DNA from: a virus
Strand: one strand, 5' to 3'
Virus record (IMG/VR): IMGVR_UViG_3300036835_000385
Span: 1 to 21,260 of that record
Length of the DNA stretch: 21,260 nucleotides
Part shown: positions 1,103-21,260 of the stretch, piece by piece
How the letters are laid out: every line of letters starts with the position of its first letter
How positions within the stretch are numbered: the stretch's first letter is position 1
The notes under the pieces: generated by a model
Told to the model about the DNA's origin: nothing
Databases searched by the model: none
Seen by the model: only the letters and a program-made list of their open reading frames with translations
Position numbers and translations under genes: made by a program

Positions 1103-1513
1103 CTATTCGTCTTTCAGGCAGGTGTAGATGGTCGCGTGCCCTTGCGGCGCGTTGATGACGAGCGTGCCGGGGCTGAACCCGTTGGGGCAGGTGAAGCCGC
1201 CGCTACCGGCTGGCCCCGGCGGGCCGATGGGGCCGACCTCACCCTTCGCGCCAGCGGGACCAGCGGGGCCAGCAGGCCCGGCGGGGCCGGCGTCACCTTT
1301 CGCGCCCGCGGGTCCGGCTGGGCCGGCGGGACCGGCGGGGCCGCGTTCGCCGCTGCCGACGTTGATGGTGACGGTGCGCCCCGGCCCGGCCTGGCCGCTC
1401 GACAAGGCGGTCGAGGTGAGGTAGCCGCTGGCGCCCGCCAACGCGACGGCGCCCACCGCCAGGGCGCCCGCTTTACCGGTGCTCCTGATCGCCTTCAGCG
1501 CCTGGGTGATCAT
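1103..1513 (-). CDS. Membrane-anchored collagen-like protein
   Basis: A 136-residue protein in three parts. Residues 1-45 are a short basic N-terminus and one hydrophobic segment ([17 protein letters not shown]), a signal anchor or uncleaved signal peptide. Residues about 57-103 are uninterrupted Gly-X-Y triplets, mostly GPA. They form two copies of a (GPA)4-GAKG unit, followed by [10 protein letters not shown]. The last 30 residues carry two cysteines (FTCPNG and YTCLKDE) that could pair. Gly-X-Y runs form collagen triple helices in bacterial and phage proteins, usually as surface or fibre stalks. The gene is last in the lysis cassette, starts inside the upstream gene (41-bp overlap) and has its own AGGAG 7 bases before the ATG. 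Possible roles are a lysis accessory, a surface protein on the lysogen, or a virion decoration. The sequence does not decide. Confidence 0.8.
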
Positions 1514-1661
1514 CGTGATGCTCCTGCCATTCCTCGTGGATCTCGTGGCTGGCCTTCGCGGCCGCCACGACCAGCGACTGCAACGCCAGGATGAGGCTGC
1601 CGAGCCCGGTCACGAACGCCGCGGCCGCCGCGAGCCCCTCCCCGGCCGTGAACGCGAGCAT
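1473..1661 (-). CDS. Small membrane protein of the lysis cassette (second holin or antiholin candidate)
   Basis: A 62-residue protein with one long hydrophobic helix (about residues 8-36, [20 protein letters not shown] within it) and a charged tail rich in His, Glu and Asp ([15 protein letters not shown]). Its ATG directly follows the TGA of the two-helix holin, and its 3' end overlaps the collagen-like gene. Actinophages often encode a pair of small membrane proteins after the endolysin, where one is the holin and the other modulates it. That role is inferred from position and topology; no family was recognised. Confidence 0.65.
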
Positions 1662-1898
1662 TCACGCCTCGGGCGGCGCCGCCGCCTGTTCGCCCTGGTC
1701 GCCGGGGGGCAGGTTCGCGATCCCGTACACGCCCCCGAACGCGATCAGGGCGCTGCTGGCGATCGTGACCCACTGGGCGGCGGTGACCTGGCTGATCGAC
1801 TCGCCGCCGACCAGGGTGACCTGCAAGGCGCCGAGCCCGGCGACGAGCCCGGCGAACACCGCTTTCAGCGCCTGCTTCACGAACTGGGCGACCTTCAC
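1662..1898 (-). CDS. Holin (two transmembrane helices)
   Basis: A 78-residue protein with two predicted membrane helices, about residues 8-30 (ALKAVFAGLVAGLGALQVTL) and 42-63 (WVTIASSALIAFGGVYGIANL), and a short hydrophilic tail. This matches small holins of actinophages, which open the membrane at a set time so that the endolysin reaches the wall. It is immediately downstream of the endolysin gene. The GTG start at 1898 is chosen because a perfect AAAGGAGGTGA ribosome-binding site lies 7 bases upstream, the strongest in the window, which suggests high or precisely timed expression. Its stop abuts the next ATG. Confidence 0.82.
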   Translation of the reverse strand: MKVAQFVKQALKAVFAGLVAGLGALQVTLVGGESISQVTAAQWVTIASSALIAFGGVYGIANLPPGDQGEQAAAPPEA

Positions 1899-1913: not shown

Positions 1914-2816
1914 CTAGGCCTCCTTCACGCGCACGAACACCGTCCCCTGCGCGCTCCTGGTCCTGGAGCGGCGCATGACCTCGCCGCCGTTCGAGTCGTT
2001 GTTGATCGACGTGTTCCCCTCGATCGCGTTGAACGTCGACGGGGACGACCAGTTCTCGAACAGGCCGACGTGGTCGTAGGTGCCGTCGAACTGCCAGTCG
2101 TAGCAGACGAGGTCACCGGGCTCCGGGTCGTCCGTGGTCGTCAATCCGTTCTTGCCGGCGCGCGCGTCACTGACGATGTACGGCACGTAGCTGTACCTCG
2201 AGCCCTGCACGAACGCGGGGCTATCCCCGCTGGTCTCGTAGCACCACGTAGTGAACATCGCGCACCAGGGGCCGGTCATCCCGTACCAGGTGCAGTACTT
2301 CACCTTGTTCGTGTCGGGCGGTGACTCCTTGACGCCGAGCTGGGTGACCGCCTTCTGCAGCGCGGCGTCGCGGATCGACCCTTTGGGGCTGGCGGGCTCG
2401 TGCCCCTCGAACATCCCGTACGCGGTGTTGATGAGGTTGACGGCGGTGGCGTCCATCGCCATCTCCCCGGCGTGCGACCCGGTAGGCACCCGGGCGCTGC
2501 GGAGGAGGTTGAAGGTGGACTGGCCGACCCAGCCGGTGTCGTCCAGGTCCTGCTGGCGTTGCACGCCGGCGAGCCCGGACTCACCGACGTTCCCTGAGAT
2601 CCCGTGCGCGAACCCGTTGCTGTAGGCGCCGTCGAAGTCCTGCCACGGCCACCGGCCCAACCTCGAGACTGTCCGCTTGTACGCCTCCACGTCGGGGCCG
2701 TCCATGCTCGCCTTCTTCCCCTGCGCGGCCGCGTCCGGCGGGTACAGCGGCCTGGGGAACCCGGCCACCTTCACCATGGGGCCGCCCTTGTACGGGGTCT
2801 CCCACCACTCGCTCAT
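1914..2816 (-). CDS. Endolysin: peptidoglycan-binding domain plus CHAP amidase/peptidase
   Basis: A 300-residue lytic enzyme that degrades host peptidoglycan at the end of infection. Residues about 40-110 resemble a PG_binding_1-type wall-binding domain (VEAYKRTVSRLGRWPW, then VQRQQDLDDTGWVGQSTFNLL). A linker follows, then a CHAP domain at about residues 150-300: catalytic Cys185 in GPWCAMFTTWC, His249 in YDHVGLF, and an acidic/polar residue in AIEGNTS (Glu266 or Asn268). Whether it cuts as an amidase or an endopeptidase cannot be told. No signal peptide is present, consistent with holin-dependent release. The ATG at 2816 overlaps the stop of the upstream gene (TGATG). The binding domain lies N-terminal to the catalytic one, the reverse of many actinophage lysins. 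Confidence 0.9.
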   Translation of the reverse strand: MSEWWETPYKGGPMVKVAGFPRPLYPPDAAAQGKKASMDGPDVEAYKRTVSRLGRWPWQDFDGAYSNGFAHGISGNVGESGLAGVQRQQDLDDTGWVGQSTFNLLRSARVPTGSHAGEMAMDATAVNLINTAYGMFEGHEPASPKGSIRDAALQKAVTQLGVKESPPDTNKVKYCTWYGMTGPWCAMFTTWCYETSGDSPAFVQGSRYSYVPYIVSDARAGKNGLTTTDDPEPGDLVCYDWQFDGTYDHVGLFENWSSPSTFNAIEGNTSINNDSNGGEVMRRSRTRSAQGTVFVRVKEA

Positions 2817-3706
2817 CAGCAGAGCTCCTCGTGTTGCATCGTCTCGGCCAGGTACCCGTAATAGACCTCGCCGGGCTGCACCTGGTACTGCGCGACCGTC
2901 CACCCCCAGTACACGCCGAGGCAGGGGACGATCATCTCGCGCGCGTAGCCGCGCGTGAGGCACTCGTTGACCATGGCGTCCCAGAAGCCGCGCGGGTTGC
3001 TCGCCCACTCCTGGTTCTCGCAGCTGTACACCTCGGGCTGGACGCACACCTGGCAGTCCTGCATGAGGTTGTCGAACTCCTCCCCGATCGTCCTCGACGG
3101 CTCCATGTTCGTGACGATGAACAGCGGCACCGTGCTGATCTCGTTCGCCTTCGAGATCGCCTCCATGCACGCCTGCCCCTGCCCGGTCTCGGCCTGCGCG
3201 CAGTACATGTCCGGGCCGAACGACAATGCGAGCTCGGCGCGCTCCGCACTCGGCCATGCGTCCCACAACCCGACTTTCATGCCGCGGGCGCGGCCGGCAC
3301 TCATGTAGTCGGCGCCGCGGTCGCGGTACAGCTGCACGAGGCACGCCTGGTAGCCGGAGCGCACCATGGCGTCGCACGCCTGTTCCGGGGACCAGGGGCG
3401 GCCGTTGAAGTCCTGCCCTTTGTCGCCGTTGCCGGTCGGGTCGCCCATGTTCGAGCCGGCGCCGCCGGCGACGAACACTCCCGTGTCGAACTTGGTGGGG
3501 TGGATCTCTTCGGGGGGTAGAGGCTCCTCGTCGTCGTCGGCCTGGTCGTGGTCGTCGGCGAGGATCTGCAGGGTCCGCTCGAGCTTGTCGTACGCCCCCC
3601 ACGTTGCGAGGTCATCGGTGCGGTTCGGCTTGGTGCCACCCGGGTCGAGCTTGCGCAAGCGTTCGATCGACGCGTGGATCCCGTCCTGGCCGCCGATCAG
3701 GGTCAT
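2816..3706 (-). CDS. Unassigned protein with a TIM-barrel-like (glycosidase-like) body
   Basis: A 296-residue protein. Residues 1-70 are a charged, probably helical leader with an acidic stretch (DDHDQADDDEEPLPPEE). From about residue 75 the sequence alternates hydrophobic strands and amphipathic helices: FVAGGAGSNMG, ACLVQLYRDRG, KVGLWDAWPS, DMYCAQAETG, VPLFIVTNMEP, MIVPCLGVYWGW. This is the pattern of beta/alpha-barrel glycoside hydrolases and DUF1906-like proteins. Six cysteines between about residues 165 and 260, and one at the very C-terminus, are unusual for a cytoplasmic phage protein. It overlaps the small tail gene upstream (ATGA) and the endolysin downstream (TGATG), so it could be a virion-associated glycan-degrading tail protein or a second lysin component. 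I did not recognise a specific family and no catalytic pair is assigned. Confidence 0.6.
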   Translation of the reverse strand: MTLIGGQDGIHASIERLRKLDPGGTKPNRTDDLATWGAYDKLERTLQILADDHDQADDDEEPLPPEEIHPTKFDTGVFVAGGAGSNMGDPTGNGDKGQDFNGRPWSPEQACDAMVRSGYQACLVQLYRDRGADYMSAGRARGMKVGLWDAWPSAERAELALSFGPDMYCAQAETGQGQACMEAISKANEISTVPLFIVTNMEPSRTIGEEFDNLMQDCQVCVQPEVYSCENQEWASNPRGFWDAMVNECLTRGYAREMIVPCLGVYWGWTVAQYQVQPGEVYYGYLAETMQHEELC

Positions 3707-3909
3707 GCGAGGAGGTCTCGGAGCTGGGCGACGGTGACCGGCTGGTCGTCGGGGAGCCCCTCGAGCCGCTCCTGGAGCGTCTGGGGGGTCACCGGGTCGG
3801 GTGTCTCCTTCTGCGCCTTCTGGTGGGCTTTCTGCTCGCCGGCTTTCATGGGCCGGTGCTCGGTTTCGCCGGTCTCACAGTTGATGACGAGAACGGTGGG
3901 GTCGGCCAT
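3703..3909 (-). CDS. Small tail-region protein (XkdW-like layout)
   Basis: A 68-residue hydrophilic protein. It starts MADPTVLVINCETGETEHRP, followed by a Lys/Gln-rich helix and a C-terminal segment ending QPVTVAQLRDLLA. Short proteins with this 'value, CETGE, then charged helix' layout commonly follow tail-fibre genes in siphoviruses and related defective phages (the XkdW type). Their role is not established. The ATG at 3909 has a GGAGG sited 6 bases upstream, right after the fibre stop. The stop overlaps the next start by 4 bases. Confidence 0.65.
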   Translation of the reverse strand: MADPTVLVINCETGETEHRPMKAGEQKAHQKAQKETPDPVTPQTLQERLEGLPDDQPVTVAQLRDLLA

Positions 3910-5167: not shown

Positions 5168-6264
5168 GACGACACCTGGCTGGTGGTGGTGAGCTCCAAT
5201 GCGCCGGTGACGTCGAGGCCCAATCGGATCGCGTTCACGGTCTGCTGCTCGACGCGGCCGTCCGGGTAGCGGATCTCGATCAGGTCACCGGGCTCGAGTG
5301 CGGGGTTCGGGATCCCCTGCAGCACCAGGGTGCGCGACAACCCCAGGCGGAGGTTCAACAGGCTGCGGGCGGTGCTGTCGGCCTGCGCCTGCGACGCCAC
5401 CGCCGTCGAGCTCGAGATGAGCGGCACTTTCCCGAACGGGCCTCCCCACCGGGTCGCCGCCAGCGGGTCGTCGTAGGTCGCGAGCGCGTAAATTGGGGGC
5501 TGGTCGACGTCCGGCTGCCCCCTCACCGAGACACCGTTGCGGACGCTCGAGCGGTCGACGGTCTCGGCGACCTGGATGAGGCTGCCGTTGTCGCCGGCGT
5601 CGAACACCCACGCCACCGTGGTCGACGGGGTGCGCGGCCGGATGACGAAGTCCCCTTGGTTGTCGAACAGCGCCTCCGCCCCCACACTCGAGGCGAGATC
5701 CGAGAGGGCGGCCGCCCGATCCTCCTCGTACACGGTCGCCCCGCTGAGGATCGGCTCCGACGGCGGGTCGGTGAGGATGTGGTAGGCGATCGTGCTCCCG
5801 AACACGTCCTGGACGATCTGGACGGCGGCGGTCGACACCCGCACCCCGGTGGGCGCGTACGGGGTGACGAACCGCTCGTCGATGATCTGCGCCATCCGGT
5901 CGTTCAGGGTGAGCGCCGCGGTCTTCTGCTGCTCGTCCCACACCACCGAGTCCACCCGGAAGCGGCCCAGCTGCACACGCTCGGCGACCCCGTCCGCGTA
6001 CGTGATGCCGCGCTCGACGACGCAGTAGCCGCCGTAGGGGAGCTCCGCGACCGCCTCCCGCACCTGGTCGTCGACGAGGGTGAACGCGATCTCGAGGGTG
6101 GCCTGCCGCGTGATCTGGGCGTCCTGGTCGACCGTCAGATCCCCGCTGACGACGCGCACGTCGATGGGGGTGGCGAGATCCGAGGGGGCGTAGATGCTGG
6201 CGGCCACCGAGATCGCGTGCGACTGCCGGAGCGCGGTCAGGAACCGCTGCGACACGGTGAGCAT
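5164..6264 (-). CDS. Tail hub / DUF5047-like tail protein
   Basis: A 366-residue protein. The N-terminal region (RFLTALRQSHAISVAASIYAP, then VVSGDLTVDQDAQITRQATLEIA) matches the layout of DUF5047-type tail proteins of actinophages. The C-terminal half, with LFDNQGDFVIRP, an SVRNGVSVRG-like strand and LEPGDLIEIRYPDG, has the look of the tail-associated hub (gp27/ORF16-like) fold. It follows the distal-tail-like protein, the usual position of a baseplate hub, and the ATG overlaps the previous stop (TGATG). It is expected to be a trimer below the tail tube. Confidence 0.75.
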   Translation of the reverse strand: MLTVSQRFLTALRQSHAISVAASIYAPSDLATPIDVRVVSGDLTVDQDAQITRQATLEIAFTLVDDQVREAVAELPYGGYCVVERGITYADGVAERVQLGRFRVDSVVWDEQQKTAALTLNDRMAQIIDERFVTPYAPTGVRVSTAAVQIVQDVFGSTIAYHILTDPPSEPILSGATVYEEDRAAALSDLASSVGAEALFDNQGDFVIRPRTPSTTVAWVFDAGDNGSLIQVAETVDRSSVRNGVSVRGQPDVDQPPIYALATYDDPLAATRWGGPFGKVPLISSSTAVASQAQADSTARSLLNLRLGLSRTLVLQGIPNPALEPGDLIEIRYPDGRVEQQTVNAIRLGLDVTGALELTTTSQVSS

Positions 6265-14398: not shown

Positions 14399-14420
14399 AA
14401 GCGCATCATATGCTTCGCAT
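14396..14420. promoter_or_regulatory. Divergent promoter candidates between portal and terminase
   Basis: The portal (minus, 14398) and terminase (plus, 14410) start codons are separated by 11 bp. On the minus strand TATGAT (5 of 6 match to a -10) ends 6 bases before the portal ATG. On the plus strand CATAAG (4 of 6) ends 8 bases before the terminase ATG. Both would give leaderless transcripts. No convincing -35 boxes are seen. The inverted repeat GCATCATATGC lies between them. Confidence 0.35.
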
Positions 14421-15882
14421 CCGGGTGGCACGCGAGAAGTTATGGGCGCCGGTCGAGGACAACCTCTCGTCGCGCGGCCCCAAACGCGCCCTCCAGCTCG
14501 TCGAGATGCCACCCTGGATCACCTGGCGGACGAGCTCGGAGTCCGCCCGGGCGATCCGGTGGATCGAGAAGTACCTTCCCGTCCCGGTCGGGTACGGCGC
14601 CGGCGAGCCGATGAAGCTCGCCGGGTTTCAGAAGCGGATCATCAAGACGATGTACGACCACCTAGCCGCGTTCGTCAGCATCCCCGCCGCCAACGGGAAG
14701 TCGACGCTCCTCGCGGCGGTCGCGGTCGAACGCCTCTGCCGCGGTGACGCGTACACGGAGGTGATCGTGCTCGCCACGAAGCGGGAGCAGGCGGCGATCA
14801 TGGTCGAGGCCGCCAAACGCTTCGTGAAAAGCGTCCCGGAGCTCGCATCACGGTGCGTCTGGTACGCGGACGCCGGCATCCTCGAGTTCAAGCCCACCGG
14901 CAGCCGCCTCCAAGCCCATCCGGCCAAGCTCTCGTCGCTGCAAGGGTTGAACTTCTCGCTCGCTGTTGTCGACGAGGTCGGGTTCGCCGACGATCCGCTG
15001 ATCGAAGCTCTCATCGCGAGGCTCGCCAAGAGACCCGACGCGCGGCTGATCGGGATCGGGACCCCCGGGTTCGAGCCGAACATGCTCCACCGGCTCCGCG
15101 AAGCCCACCACGACGGCAGCCTCCCCCGCGGTGTCGCCTACCTGGAATGGGCCGCCCCCGAGGGCGCCGACCTCCACGACCAGCGGGCGTGGCGGCAAGC
15201 GAACCCCGCGCTCGCCGCGGGGTTCATGGGACCCGACGCGCTCGCGATCCAGGCCGACCTCCTCCCCGAGCGTGCGTTCCGCGTCTACCACCTGGGCCAG
15301 TGGGTCGACCAGGCCGCCGGCTGGCTCCCCCCCGGCGCCTGGCAATCCAACCCCATCGCGGAACCACCCCCGCCCGACACCGACGTTGTCCTCGCGGTGG
15401 AAGGCACCTACCGGCGCACCCTCGCCGTCGTCGGGTGCGCACTCGACGGCACCCTGTTCTTCTGCTGGGCCGCCGAAGCAGCCACCGACGACGAGCTCCG
15501 CCAGGTCCTCGACCAGGCTTGCGCCCAGTGGAACGTCCTCGAGGTCACCTACCCGAAACGGATCCGCACCCGCCTGTTCGACCAGCTCCGCCACGCCGGG
15601 CTCCCCGTCGAACCCTGGGACTCGAAGCCCGACAACGAGGCCGCCTCGGCGAACGAGCTGTACCGGGCCATCATCGACGCCCGCGTCCCCCACGACCACC
15701 ACCCCCTCCTCGAGGAACACGTCGCCCAGCTCGCCGTCCGCACCAACGTCGACGGCTCGCTCCGGCTGACACGTCCCGATACCGGCCAGCACGTCGACGC
15801 AGCCCTCGCCGCCAGGGCCGCATGGTGGCGAGCCTTCCAGCTCGCCGACCACAACCCAGCCGAACCGATCCGCATCTACTGA
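14410..15882 (+). CDS. terL: Terminase large subunit (ATPase and nuclease)
   Basis: A 490-residue DNA-packaging motor. The ATPase half has a Walker A variant IPAANGKS (Lys97), Walker B LAVVDE (Asp188-Glu189) and a coupling motif LIGIGTPG (about 213-220). The C-terminal half is the RNase H-like nuclease: VVLAVEG near residue 327, an LEVTYPKRI strand, and HVDAALAARAAWW near the end. The first acidic residue is Glu331 where Asp is usual. It is the only head/packaging gene on the plus strand. The starts ATG 14410 and GTG 14425 have no ribosome-binding site, and an in-frame TAA at 14398-14400 excludes earlier starts. No separate small terminase gene was recognised. The HNH gene across the convergent terminator may assist, as in HK97-type packaging. 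Confidence 0.92.
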   Translation: MLRIRVAREKLWAPVEDNLSSRGPKRALQLVEMPPWITWRTSSESARAIRWIEKYLPVPVGYGAGEPMKLAGFQKRIIKTMYDHLAAFVSIPAANGKSTLLAAVAVERLCRGDAYTEVIVLATKREQAAIMVEAAKRFVKSVPELASRCVWYADAGILEFKPTGSRLQAHPAKLSSLQGLNFSLAVVDEVGFADDPLIEALIARLAKRPDARLIGIGTPGFEPNMLHRLREAHHDGSLPRGVAYLEWAAPEGADLHDQRAWRQANPALAAGFMGPDALAIQADLLPERAFRVYHLGQWVDQAAGWLPPGAWQSNPIAEPPPPDTDVVLAVEGTYRRTLAVVGCALDGTLFFCWAAEAATDDELRQVLDQACAQWNVLEVTYPKRIRTRLFDQLRHAGLPVEPWDSKPDNEAASANELYRAIIDARVPHDHHPLLEEHVAQLAVRTNVDGSLRLTRPDTGQHVDAALAARAAWWRAFQLADHNPAEPIRIY

Positions 15883-18359: not shown

Positions 18360-18556
18360 TTCGGCAGCACCTCGATCTGGTCGAGCCACGCTTTCACCGT
18401 GAGCCCGTTGTCCATCGAGATGTCGCAATGCCACCTGTCCGGGGAACGCCGCAGCTCCAGGTTGTTCCAGGAGCCCGGGATCAACCTGGCGGCCTCGATG
18501 CGGCCCAAGGCTTTGCCGATCCGGACGCGCCTGTACACCAGCCCGCTGTCAGTCAC
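18356..18556 (-). CDS. Hypothetical 66-residue protein
   Basis: The product carries VYRRVRIGKALGRIEAARL, a NNLELRRSPDRWHCDISM segment and AWLDQIEVLPK. It is probably a small alpha/beta protein and no family was recognised. GTG 18556 is chosen because it overlaps the transglycosylase stop as GTGA and its own stop overlaps the next start the same way, matching the whole operon. A longer version from GTG 18589 would overlap the upstream gene by 37 bases. Confidence 0.65.
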   Translation of the reverse strand: MTDSGLVYRRVRIGKALGRIEAARLIPGSWNNLELRRSPDRWHCDISMDNGLTVKAWLDQIEVLPK

Positions 18557-19041
18557 CGGAGCCCGCACATTCGGCTGGTGTTCGGCCACGGCCCGAACCC
18601 GCGGGTCGCATACGCGGTGATCGCGACCGCCAATTGCTGCGCTGGTGTCCAGTGGTTCGCGGTGCCGCGTGATTGCAATAGCCGGCCGCCATAGGCGCGC
18701 ATGAACGACCAGTCCATTTGCAGGCCGCCGTAATAGGGGGCGCCACTGTCAGTCCAGCTCCCCTCATGGGAGTGGATGCATTGGAACGCGCCGATCAGCC
18801 CGACCAGGTGGTCAAGCTTGCGTGTGAGCAGCTCGCGGAGCCGCTGCGTGGTGCGCTGCTGCTGCCGGTAGCGCTGCGCCCACTTCTCAGGCCCGAGTCC
18901 GTTGAAGCGCACCTGGCCGTACCCGATTGTCCGATTCGCCTCGAGGTGGGGTGGGCGGGCGCCCCATGCTGCCACCGCCGCTGCGAGGCAGACGATCAGG
19001 CAGAGGAGCGCCGCCCACCGGCGAGAGCAGGTGGTGGTCAT
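18553..19041 (-). CDS. Secreted Rpf-like transglycosylase (lysozyme-fold muralytic enzyme)
   Basis: A 162-residue protein with an N-terminal signal peptide or anchor (about residues 8-27, RRWAALLCLIVCLAAAVAAW). A helical linker (about 52-78) follows, then a compact lysozyme-fold domain: FQCIHSHEGSWTD with the putative catalytic Glu93, YYGGLQMDWSFM, WTPAQQLAVAITAYATRGFGPWP, and a closing Cys near the end that may pair with Cys88. This order matches the transglycosylase-like domain of actinobacterial resuscitation-promoting factors, which cut the glycan between MurNAc and GlcNAc. It is not in the lysis cassette but in the leftward early/integration operon, and unlike the endolysin it should be exported. 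Entry, wall remodelling in the lysogen, or superinfection effects are possible. ATG 19041 overlaps the upstream stop (ATGA). Confidence 0.75.
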   Translation of the reverse strand: MTTTCSRRWAALLCLIVCLAAAVAAWGARPPHLEANRTIGYGQVRFNGLGPEKWAQRYRQQQRTTQRLRELLTRKLDHLVGLIGAFQCIHSHEGSWTDSGAPYYGGLQMDWSFMRAYGGRLLQSRGTANHWTPAQQLAVAITAYATRGFGPWPNTSRMCGLR

Positions 19042-19830: not shown

Positions 19831-19967
19831 CGATGCGACTCCAGACGCTCGATCTCGATCACCTCGCCGCGGCGGCGGCGCGGGAAGATCAGCCAGAGCA
19901 GGAACAGCACGGTCGCCGTGAGCCAGCCCGCGACCACGGCGAGCACGATGAGCACCCACCCGTTCAC
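19827..19967 (-). CDS. 46-residue membrane protein following integrase
   Basis: GTG 19967 overlaps the integrase stop as GTGA, and the stop overlaps the next ATG as ATGA. The product is NGWVLIVLAVVAGWLTATVL followed by FLLWLIFPRRRRGEVIEIER, one long hydrophobic helix (about residues 4-29) and a short Arg-rich cytoplasmic-type tail (inside-positive). The coupling on both sides and the clear membrane pattern make it a real gene. Its position right after int recalls small membrane proteins expressed from prophages, such as superinfection-exclusion factors, but no family was recognised. Confidence 0.7.
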   Translation of the reverse strand: MNGWVLIVLAVVAGWLTATVLFLLWLIFPRRRRGEVIEIERLESHR

Positions 19968-21100
19968 CGGGCCGCCTCACCGGCGTCCTGCTGCTTCGCG
20001 TCGCGCCGGTCACGCAGGAACGTCTCGTACCGGTCGAGGTGCACGGTGAGCTCGTCGGGGAACAGGTGCCGGTATCGCTCGAGGATGAGGCGGCCGCCGT
20101 CCTTGTGGCCGACGCGGGCGGCGATCGTCTCGGGTCGCATCCCGCTCGCGGCCATCAGGCTGATCGCCGTGTGGCGGAGGTCGTGGGGGACGACCGTGTC
20201 GAACCGGGTCTCGTACCAGTCTGAGAATCCGTGCTCCTGGCGCCACTCGCGGGCGGCCGCCTCCCGTGCGGGGTGCCAGACGCGCGCGTAGAAGTCGGCC
20301 TTCCCCCAGCGGCCGGGCTGGTGGCGGCGGCCGCCGCGGCTGGTGGGTTGGCCGCCGGCGCGCGGGAACACGATCGGGGTTCCGGGGCTGCGCGCGACGA
20401 GCTGCTCGGCGAGCAAGGTCCGCTCGAACGGGGCGAGCTGGATCAGCTTGTCCCTGCGCTCCTTGCACATGGGGCCGGGGATCAGCACGAGCCCGCGCTT
20501 CAGGTCGACGCGGTCGTCTGTGAGCCCCAATGCTTCGCTGAGGCGAAGGCCGAGCGACCCGACGATCTCCGGGAGCAGCGCGATCTGCTCAGGGAAGAAC
20601 GACGCGAGCCGCTCGAGCTCGTGGAGGTCGAGCGCGATCCCTTCCCGGCTCGTCGCCTGGATCGGGTCGATCTGCAGGAGCGCCAGGTCGAACCGCTGCC
20701 GGCGGCGGCGCGCGTCACGCAAGCCGCGTTTCAGCCACTCGAGGTTCTTCTTGGCGGCGTTCGGGTGCTCGACCGCCCTGGCGATGATCGCGTCCTCGAC
20801 CTCGACCAATGACAGGTCGCAGACGAGTCGCCGGCCGAACTCCCTGTCCCAGAACCCGCAGATCTCGCGGGCCCGGTCGGCTGTCCCCCTGGCGGGCTGC
20901 GTGGTTACCTCCCAGCGGCGCCGGTACCCGTCGAGCATCTCGGTGACGGTGATCGGCGGCTCCTCATGCAGGTCGCCGAGCGAACGCGCGAGCTTGCGGT
21001 TCAGCTCGTACCTCTCGGCCGCCGCATGGGTCGGGAAGCTTCTCGCGCGTTCTCCTGGGAGCCGCACCTGGAACCCGTGTCCGTGCCGGCGGATCGACAT
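19964..21100 (-). CDS. int: Tyrosine integrase (site-specific recombinase)
   Basis: A 378-residue phage integrase. The N-terminus (RHGHGFQVRLPGERARSFPTH) is an arm-binding type domain. Residues about 50-140 form the core-binding SAM-like domain. The catalytic domain has Arg186 in SLGLRLSEALGL, His306 and Arg309 in HDLRHTAISLMAASG, His332 in RVGHKD and the nucleophile Tyr343 in ERYRHLFP, so all expected active-site residues are present. ATG 21100 overlaps the Xis-like stop (TGATG); a GTG at 21118 would give six extra residues and overlap further. It recombines attP with a chromosomal attB. The predicted attP lies 230-410 bp downstream of its stop codon. The gene is transcribed from the repressor-controlled leftward promoter, together with xis. 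Confidence 0.95.
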   Translation of the reverse strand: MSIRRHGHGFQVRLPGERARSFPTHAAAERYELNRKLARSLGDLHEEPPITVTEMLDGYRRRWEVTTQPARGTADRAREICGFWDREFGRRLVCDLSLVEVEDAIIARAVEHPNAAKKNLEWLKRGLRDARRRRQRFDLALLQIDPIQATSREGIALDLHELERLASFFPEQIALLPEIVGSLGLRLSEALGLTDDRVDLKRGLVLIPGPMCKERRDKLIQLAPFERTLLAEQLVARSPGTPIVFPRAGGQPTSRGGRRHQPGRWGKADFYARVWHPAREAAAREWRQEHGFSDWYETRFDTVVPHDLRHTAISLMAASGMRPETIAARVGHKDGGRLILERYRHLFPDELTVHLDRYETFLRDRRDAKQQDAGEAAR

Positions 21101-21260
21101 CAGCGCGCCTCGCGGCACCGTGTCTCGGGTTCGCGGGGGCGGAGCGGAATCACGTTCGAATCGGTGTGCCGGTCGAGGTAGTCGCGGACGGCGGACTCGG
21201 GGAAGCGGCGCAGCCTGCCGACTCTCACCGACGCGATCTCACCCGTCTGGGCTTTGTGGA
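21100..21260 (-). CDS. xis: Excisionase-like HTH protein, 3' part (continues at position 1)
   Basis: This is the C-terminal part of the protein whose start is at 163. Bases 21177-21260 duplicate 1-84. The unique stretch 21100-21176 encodes the last residues, DRHTDSNVIPLRPREPETRC followed by REAR, a polar tail after the wing of the HTH. The TGA at 21102-21100 shares its A with the ATG of the integrase, which ties translation of both. Confidence 0.8.
   Translation of the reverse strand, partial: HKAQTGEIASVRVGRLRRFPESAVRDYLDRHTDSNVIPLRPREPETRCREAR
21177..21260. repeat. Terminal direct repeat, right copy (circular overlap)
   Basis: Identical to 1-84. It should be counted once when the molecule is drawn as a circle. 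Confidence 0.95.

Follow-up and report, generated by a model that had tools for sequence, protein, structure and literature searches.

A small collagen-like phage protein with a predicted membrane helix, encoded in a conserved two-gene module, as a possible LysZ-like lysis accessory

Introduction

Holin and endolysin apart, it is an open question how phages finish the lysis of thick-walled bacteria, and LysZ and LysF1b are recent leads. LysZ of the Corynebacterium phages CL31 and Cog is described as a one-helix protein of N-in-C-out orientation, for which contact with lipid-anchored glycans on the outer side of the membrane and a lysis-promoting role have been proposed (PMC13056207). The same paper describes LysF1a of the F1 mycobacteriophages, a two-helix N-in-C-in protein, followed by LysF1b, a charged holin with one helix and N-out-C-in orientation; antiholins from separate genes are also discussed there for Gram-positive phages (PMC13056207).

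In our study, the window, an IMG/VR contig taken in its full length of 21,260 bases, was found to contain two overlapping genes, here called A and B, that can be set beside these systems. The B protein may be like LysZ, compared by description only, in having one helix, a putative N-in-C-out orientation and an outward domain, whereas LysZ has 177 aa, and a collagen stalk is not mentioned in the description consulted. The A protein is like LysF1b (DUF2746), as described there, in its one N-terminal helix, its charged tail and its place after a two-helix gene in a lysis cassette. However, A is shorter (62 aa in the window, where LysF1b has 92-150 aa), shows no DUF2746 match and is followed by B; since A has the LysF1b layout and no DUF2746 match, it is proposed here to work like LysF1b, not to be one.

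The A-B pair is also like the spanins of the Rz/Rz1 type, as an overlapping gene pair near lysis genes, but no lipoprotein partner and no coiled coil were seen in it, the soluble tail of A is predicted to be cytoplasmic, and the stalk is variable in length. The phage collagen-like tail fibres share the Gly-X-Y repeat with B, which is unlike them in its membrane-type N-terminus, its small size, its own head and its pairing with A. The bacterial collagen-like adhesins (Scl1/Scl2, Lcl) are similar in their surface collagen stalk, whereas B has an N-terminal anchor, is phage-encoded and carries a different head. No earlier description of the B family in print was found in the literature searched.

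Results

Gene B in the window

Gene B was found to be the final gene of the minus strand, on which the order is CHAP endolysin, two-helix holin-like ORF, A and B; convergent plus-strand HTH genes, ending at 1079, lie beyond it. The start codon of B is ATG, with AGGAG at 1525-1521 and a spacing of 7 nucleotides, and it sits 41 nucleotides within the 62-aa ORF 1473-1661 (gene A). The features of this region are the following.

1914..2816, minus strand: CHAP endolysin, 300 aa (Pfam, PHROG)
1662..1898, minus strand: holin-like ORF, 78 aa, with two hydrophobic stretches (called by size, helices and place)
1473..1661, minus strand: gene A, one-helix membrane protein with a charged tail, 62 aa, the 3' end overlapping B by 41 nucleotides
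1103..1513, minus strand: gene B, 136 aa, with membrane helix, TVTINV strand, collagen stalk and two-Cys head
1400..1477, minus strand: B residues 13-38, helix by prediction with many small residues, either a membrane anchor or a signal sequence (AlphaFold2, conserved small-residue positions)
1358..1375, minus strand: B residues 47-52, conserved TVTINV linker strand (alignment, AlphaFold2)
1199..1351, minus strand: B residues 55-105, Gly-X-Y stalk, including a 54-nucleotide near-duplication (repeat reading, Pfam)
1106..1198, minus strand: B residues 106-136, head with C109 and C132, predicted beta-hairpin (aligned heads, AlphaFold2)

The 78-aa holin-like ORF had no Pfam or PHROG match. For B, the Pfam Collagen model (PF01391) scored 33.1 bits against a gathering cut-off of 27.2. 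Pairwise comparison of the window, L002, L003 and L083 gave a higher pS (0.27-0.58) than pN (0.02-0.14) in each of the six pairs, and this was found in the N-terminal part as well as in the head. Since pS exceeded pN in every pair and the family is widespread, B is more than a chance ORF, and it is confirmed as a real protein-coding gene. The collagen-looking antisense ORF at 1128-1424 (plus strand) scored 16.7 bits, under the Pfam cut-off; it was read as a complementarity artefact and dropped as a gene.

Spread of the B family

The B family was found in 101 IMG/VR contigs besides the window, among them L159, a head fragment at a contig edge. An initial scan of viral contigs found 288 relatives, and 80 of them were kept; among 20 that were translated, L002, L003 and L004 contained the full layout, with 79, 75 and 54% identity to window B over the alignment, and the other 17 were larger collagen-repeat proteins. 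The four aligned heads, used as query, found 23 viral loci, and the 23-head alignment found 100 relatives among 109 pattern matches (80 kept). A search with A added 16 contigs, and some heads from the A-search loci deviate from the N-x-P-x-G motif described below; the family is therefore broader than the head searches show.

Among 50,697 phage records, tblastn of B and the heads (with the low-complexity filter on), of an A and of the holin-like protein matched none, and tblastn of one head against plasmids gave a single chance match only. When 84,980 prokaryote genomes were scanned, there were 10 pattern matches, with one spurious 20-residue match in a Treponema MAG. This absence is only suggestive because the scan pattern contained an added I and so was stricter than that used for the viral contigs; with nothing more than the spurious match, B as a host gene is graded doubtful.

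Helix, linker, stalk and head

The alignment of B contained 69 of the 72 distinct sequences, leaving out L159 (fragment), L165 and L183, and the aligned proteins ranged from 80 to 144 aa. Both Cys of the head and the N, P and G of the N-x-P-x-G motif were invariant in the 69, and the two T of the linker T-V-T-I-N-V and one Gly of the helix were almost invariant. The first-pass annotation had described an N-terminal hydrophobic helix, which is present in the window and holds in most or all of the 69 loci, and a small Cys-containing head, which bears C109 and C132 in window B. The C-x(21-24)-C head was found in 72/72 distinct open frames, window included, a count that is partly circular because the head served as query; two Cys in total were present in 74 of 82 B sequences. 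No LPXTG sorting signal was seen in the B sequences read, and the proteins end in the two-Cys head.

Small residues were conserved along the helix: position -8 was A, S or G in 65/69, position -4 was A in 56/69, position 0 was G in 67/69, position +5 was A or S in 67/69 and position +7 was A in 50/69. These fixed residues suggest a packing face; the small-x-Ala pattern, with the A at +7, would also suit signal-peptide cleavage and could mean release. By charge counts, the N flank of the helix was more positive in 53 of the 69, equal in 13 and less positive in 3.

The pure Gly-X-Y stalk of the first-pass annotation is present in window B, though the last two (GSG and GFT) of its 18 triplets are marginal, so that 16-18 triplets can be counted. 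The rise of collagen is 0.286 nm per residue, and 18 triplets would be about 15 nm long. In the 81 of 82 sequences measured (L171 was dropped, its linker having missed the pattern), the stalk ranged from 0 triplets in L134 to 22 in L096, with a median of 9. The stalkless L134 keeps helix, linker and head, and across the family the stalk is dispensable, the helix, linker and head being the constant parts. It had been suggested that the protein could span the cell wall, and collapse of the repeats in a relative had been named as counter-evidence. Such a collapse does occur, in L134; it takes away the idea of wall-spanning, whereas a role in lysis is left standing by the persistence of helix, linker and head. 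With about 15 nm for the 18 triplets of the window and a family range of 0 to 22, the stalk as a wall-spanning rod was dropped. In L177, L204 and L211 the stalk is broken or followed by an insert of non-collagen type, GDTYIV..DGS..VWDG.KWV, to which Pfam gave no match when tested in L211.

AlphaFold2, in models that are not of a trimer, predicted for window B a helix at 13-38 and strands at 47-51, 113-122 and 125-134 (mean pLDDT 75.8, pTM 0.28), and for L134 a helix at 5-29 and a hairpin at 57-66/69-78, both blocks of L134 having a pLDDT of about 88-94 (pTM 0.36). Foldseek against PDB and BFVD gave no fold match for B at E <= 0.001, and the PDB sequence search with the head profile gave five weak partial matches only, with E of 0.068 or more.

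The pairing of A and B

The start of B within the upstream membrane-protein gene, already noted for the window, was found throughout the family: in 69/69 loci the chosen B start is overlapped by an ORF that is small and hydrophobic and has a charged tail. As the best in-frame start of B was chosen, the lengths of overlap are estimated. The same overlap rule was applied to controls from 45 of the 69 loci, and it held for 13/187 other long-ORF starts and 25/385 random positions vs 45/45 B starts. The reverse search with four A proteins found 22 loci (L198-L201 being copies of one sequence), and A was followed by B in 22/22. Thus A and B are tightly linked in both directions.

The A proteins were of several sequence types; the Cys and Arg common to 15 aligned A proteins are missing in the A of the window. 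The charged fraction of the tail averaged 0.50, where the rule itself required 0.25. The charge was higher after the helix than before it (C-in) in 49/69 only, and in the A of the window itself the stretch past the helix is net negative. In 20 A proteins, hmmscan with PF10874 (DUF2746) gave no match at E <= 0.05, and PHROG and Pfam gave a few weak matches, the best (E 0.00022) to PHROGs without function.

Two loci were found to differ in this region. In L003, gene A (5849-6043) is open and contains no ATG, GTG or TTG where its start would be expected; it may begin with ACG or CTG, or there may be an error in the sequence. In L148 (5680-5800), A and B are separated by an additional small ORF, which is the one overlapping B, with A lying one further up.

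Lysis genes near A and B

B had been placed in a lysis cassette, and its position beside an endolysin and a holin-like ORF in the window is borne out by the family, where an endolysin homologue near B had phmmer or Pfam support in 45/69 loci (38 by phmmer and 7 more by Pfam Amidase_2; the phmmer queries were taken from the endolysin of the window or from the NlpC-like gene of L098). By BLAST clustering, an endolysin-type gene was near B in 47/69 loci, being upstream in 34, downstream in 12 and on the other strand in one (L148); the clustered genes of L142 and L185 had no Pfam match. Clustering found no endolysin near B in 22/69 loci, several of which are short on one side. The A-B pair sits among tail genes in L114, L152 and L153. 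In L002, L003 and L083 a tail gene is directly followed by the holin-like gene, and B thus stays with A and the holin-like gene, not with the endolysin.

In the window, 2816-3909 (minus strand) contains two ORFs, one of 68 aa and one of 296 aa (the latter matched by neither Pfam nor PHROG), which lie with the endolysin between the tail gene and the holin-like gene; no block like this was present at that place in L002, L003 and L083. The endolysins of the window, L126 and L102 contained a common N-terminal segment, PLYPP or PLYYP followed by YKRTVSRL.RW.WQ. It is joined to CHAP or Amidase_2, and Pfam barely detects it (PG_binding_1 in the window, E 0.016).

Other genes of the window and the host

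The terminase large subunit (14410-15882, plus strand; PHROG 9, E 3.1e-60) is on the strand opposite to the adjoining portal-, capsid- and tail-looking long ORFs. At 18553-19041 (minus strand) a 162-aa ORF was hydrophobic near its N-terminus and gave a transglycosylase-like domain (PF06737) with 25.9 of 27 bits, just under the cut-off, and a similar ORF was present in L003. An integrase-like ORF (19964-21118, by reading) and HTH regulators were also found, and the tRNA scan found none.

Among the best 15 of 444 terminase records, coverage and likeness were best in phiC31-type Streptomyces phages (27.5-29.3%); the largest group among the 444 was that of the Microbacterium phages. The CHAP matches of the endolysin were in Actinomyces, Bifidobacterium and Streptomyces phages, and also in Acinetobacter and Enterococcus phages. 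Together these weakly suggest Actinomycetota as the host.

Discussion

From the observed protein, its family, its pairing with A and its usual neighbourhood, we infer a function of B in lysis. Our tentative reading, to which we give nearly an even chance, is that B is a membrane-anchored, LysZ-like lysis accessory and the extracytoplasmic partner of A in a conserved two-gene membrane module. This role next to A is favoured because the layout of A resembles LysF1b and the flank charges of B fit the LysZ orientation. B would insert N-in/C-out and, given its Gly-X-Y repeat, may trimerise, whereas A would insert N-out/C-in as a holin-like protein, and the small-residue faces of the two helices may pack together. 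Beyond the membrane, the head would then act on an envelope component that is widely shared, e.g., a lipid-anchored glycan, and may help to complete lysis after the membrane breach, as is proposed for LysZ. The stalk would be an adjustable spacer rather than a device of fixed length. Against this reading we count the 22 of 69 loci without a clustered endolysin, the three loci among tail genes, the C-in charge of A in only 49 of 69, the net negative stretch in the A of the window, the lack of a DUF2746 match in A and the small-x-Ala pattern of B, which could stand for cleavage and release.

The first-pass annotation had also suggested a spanin-like device. In the strict sense this is not borne out, no lipobox-type Cys being found by reading (window A contains no Cys, window B has Cys in the head only) and no coiled coil being seen, while a looser role of the kind has a precedent in LysZ, as described in PMC13056207. 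It is possible, with a slightly smaller chance than our main reading, that A-B is an undescribed two-protein lysis system of uncultivated phages. In it, a LysF1b-like one-helix holin would be coupled to a collagen-stalked trimer of opposite orientation, the head of which binds some conserved component of the envelope; it would be a Gram-positive counterpart of the spanins with a spacer of tunable length.

The overlapping obligate pair, the opposite predicted orientations and the small-residue helices would also suit a regulator, B being an antiholin with an outward sensor domain whose helix keeps A inactive until a trigger, and separate-gene antiholins are discussed for Gram-positive phages (PMC13056207). 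We consider this unlikely: no known antiholin relative was found with Pfam, PHROG or NCBIfam, though the evidence here does not separate inhibition from help. Decoration of the lysogen surface had been offered earlier as a use of B, and an outward head on a spacer, in a phage with an integrase-like ORF and HTH regulators, would be consistent with a protein on the surface of infected or lysogenic cells, where it would prevent superinfection or re-adsorption. This proposal is weakened by the endolysin and holin-like neighbours, which together with the overlap with A point to late expression, and the head pattern is common to very different phages, whereas a receptor blocker would be expected to vary; we regard it as distinctly improbable.

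A virion protein, in the form of a short collagen-like tail spike with the N-terminal helix as a packing element, has a still smaller chance in our estimate. PHROG tail-fibre families match B, mostly over the Gly-X-Y part, A-B sits among tail genes in the three loci named above, and the stalk insert of L177, L204 and L211 resembles by eye modules of collagen-rich tail fibres, on which Pfam is silent. However, the 80-144 aa of B are few for such a protein, its conserved hydrophobic helix has a positive N flank, and no tail-fibre or tail-attachment domain was recognised outside the repeat by Pfam or PHROG. In window B the best PHROG matches span residues 40-112 and a weaker one 13-134; as the best ones centre on the repeat, the tail-fibre annotation was dropped. 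The NCBIfam adhesin models (Scl1/Scl2, Lcl) similarly match up to 46/69 members, presumably over the repeat.

These results are a caution against tail-fibre annotation for B-like genes. The A-B pair of about a hundred uncultivated phages gives a concrete family to test, in which the head is kept while the spacer comes and goes. If the LysZ-like reading is true, the collagen fold would be used here in a role other than that of a virion fibre or a bacterial adhesin.
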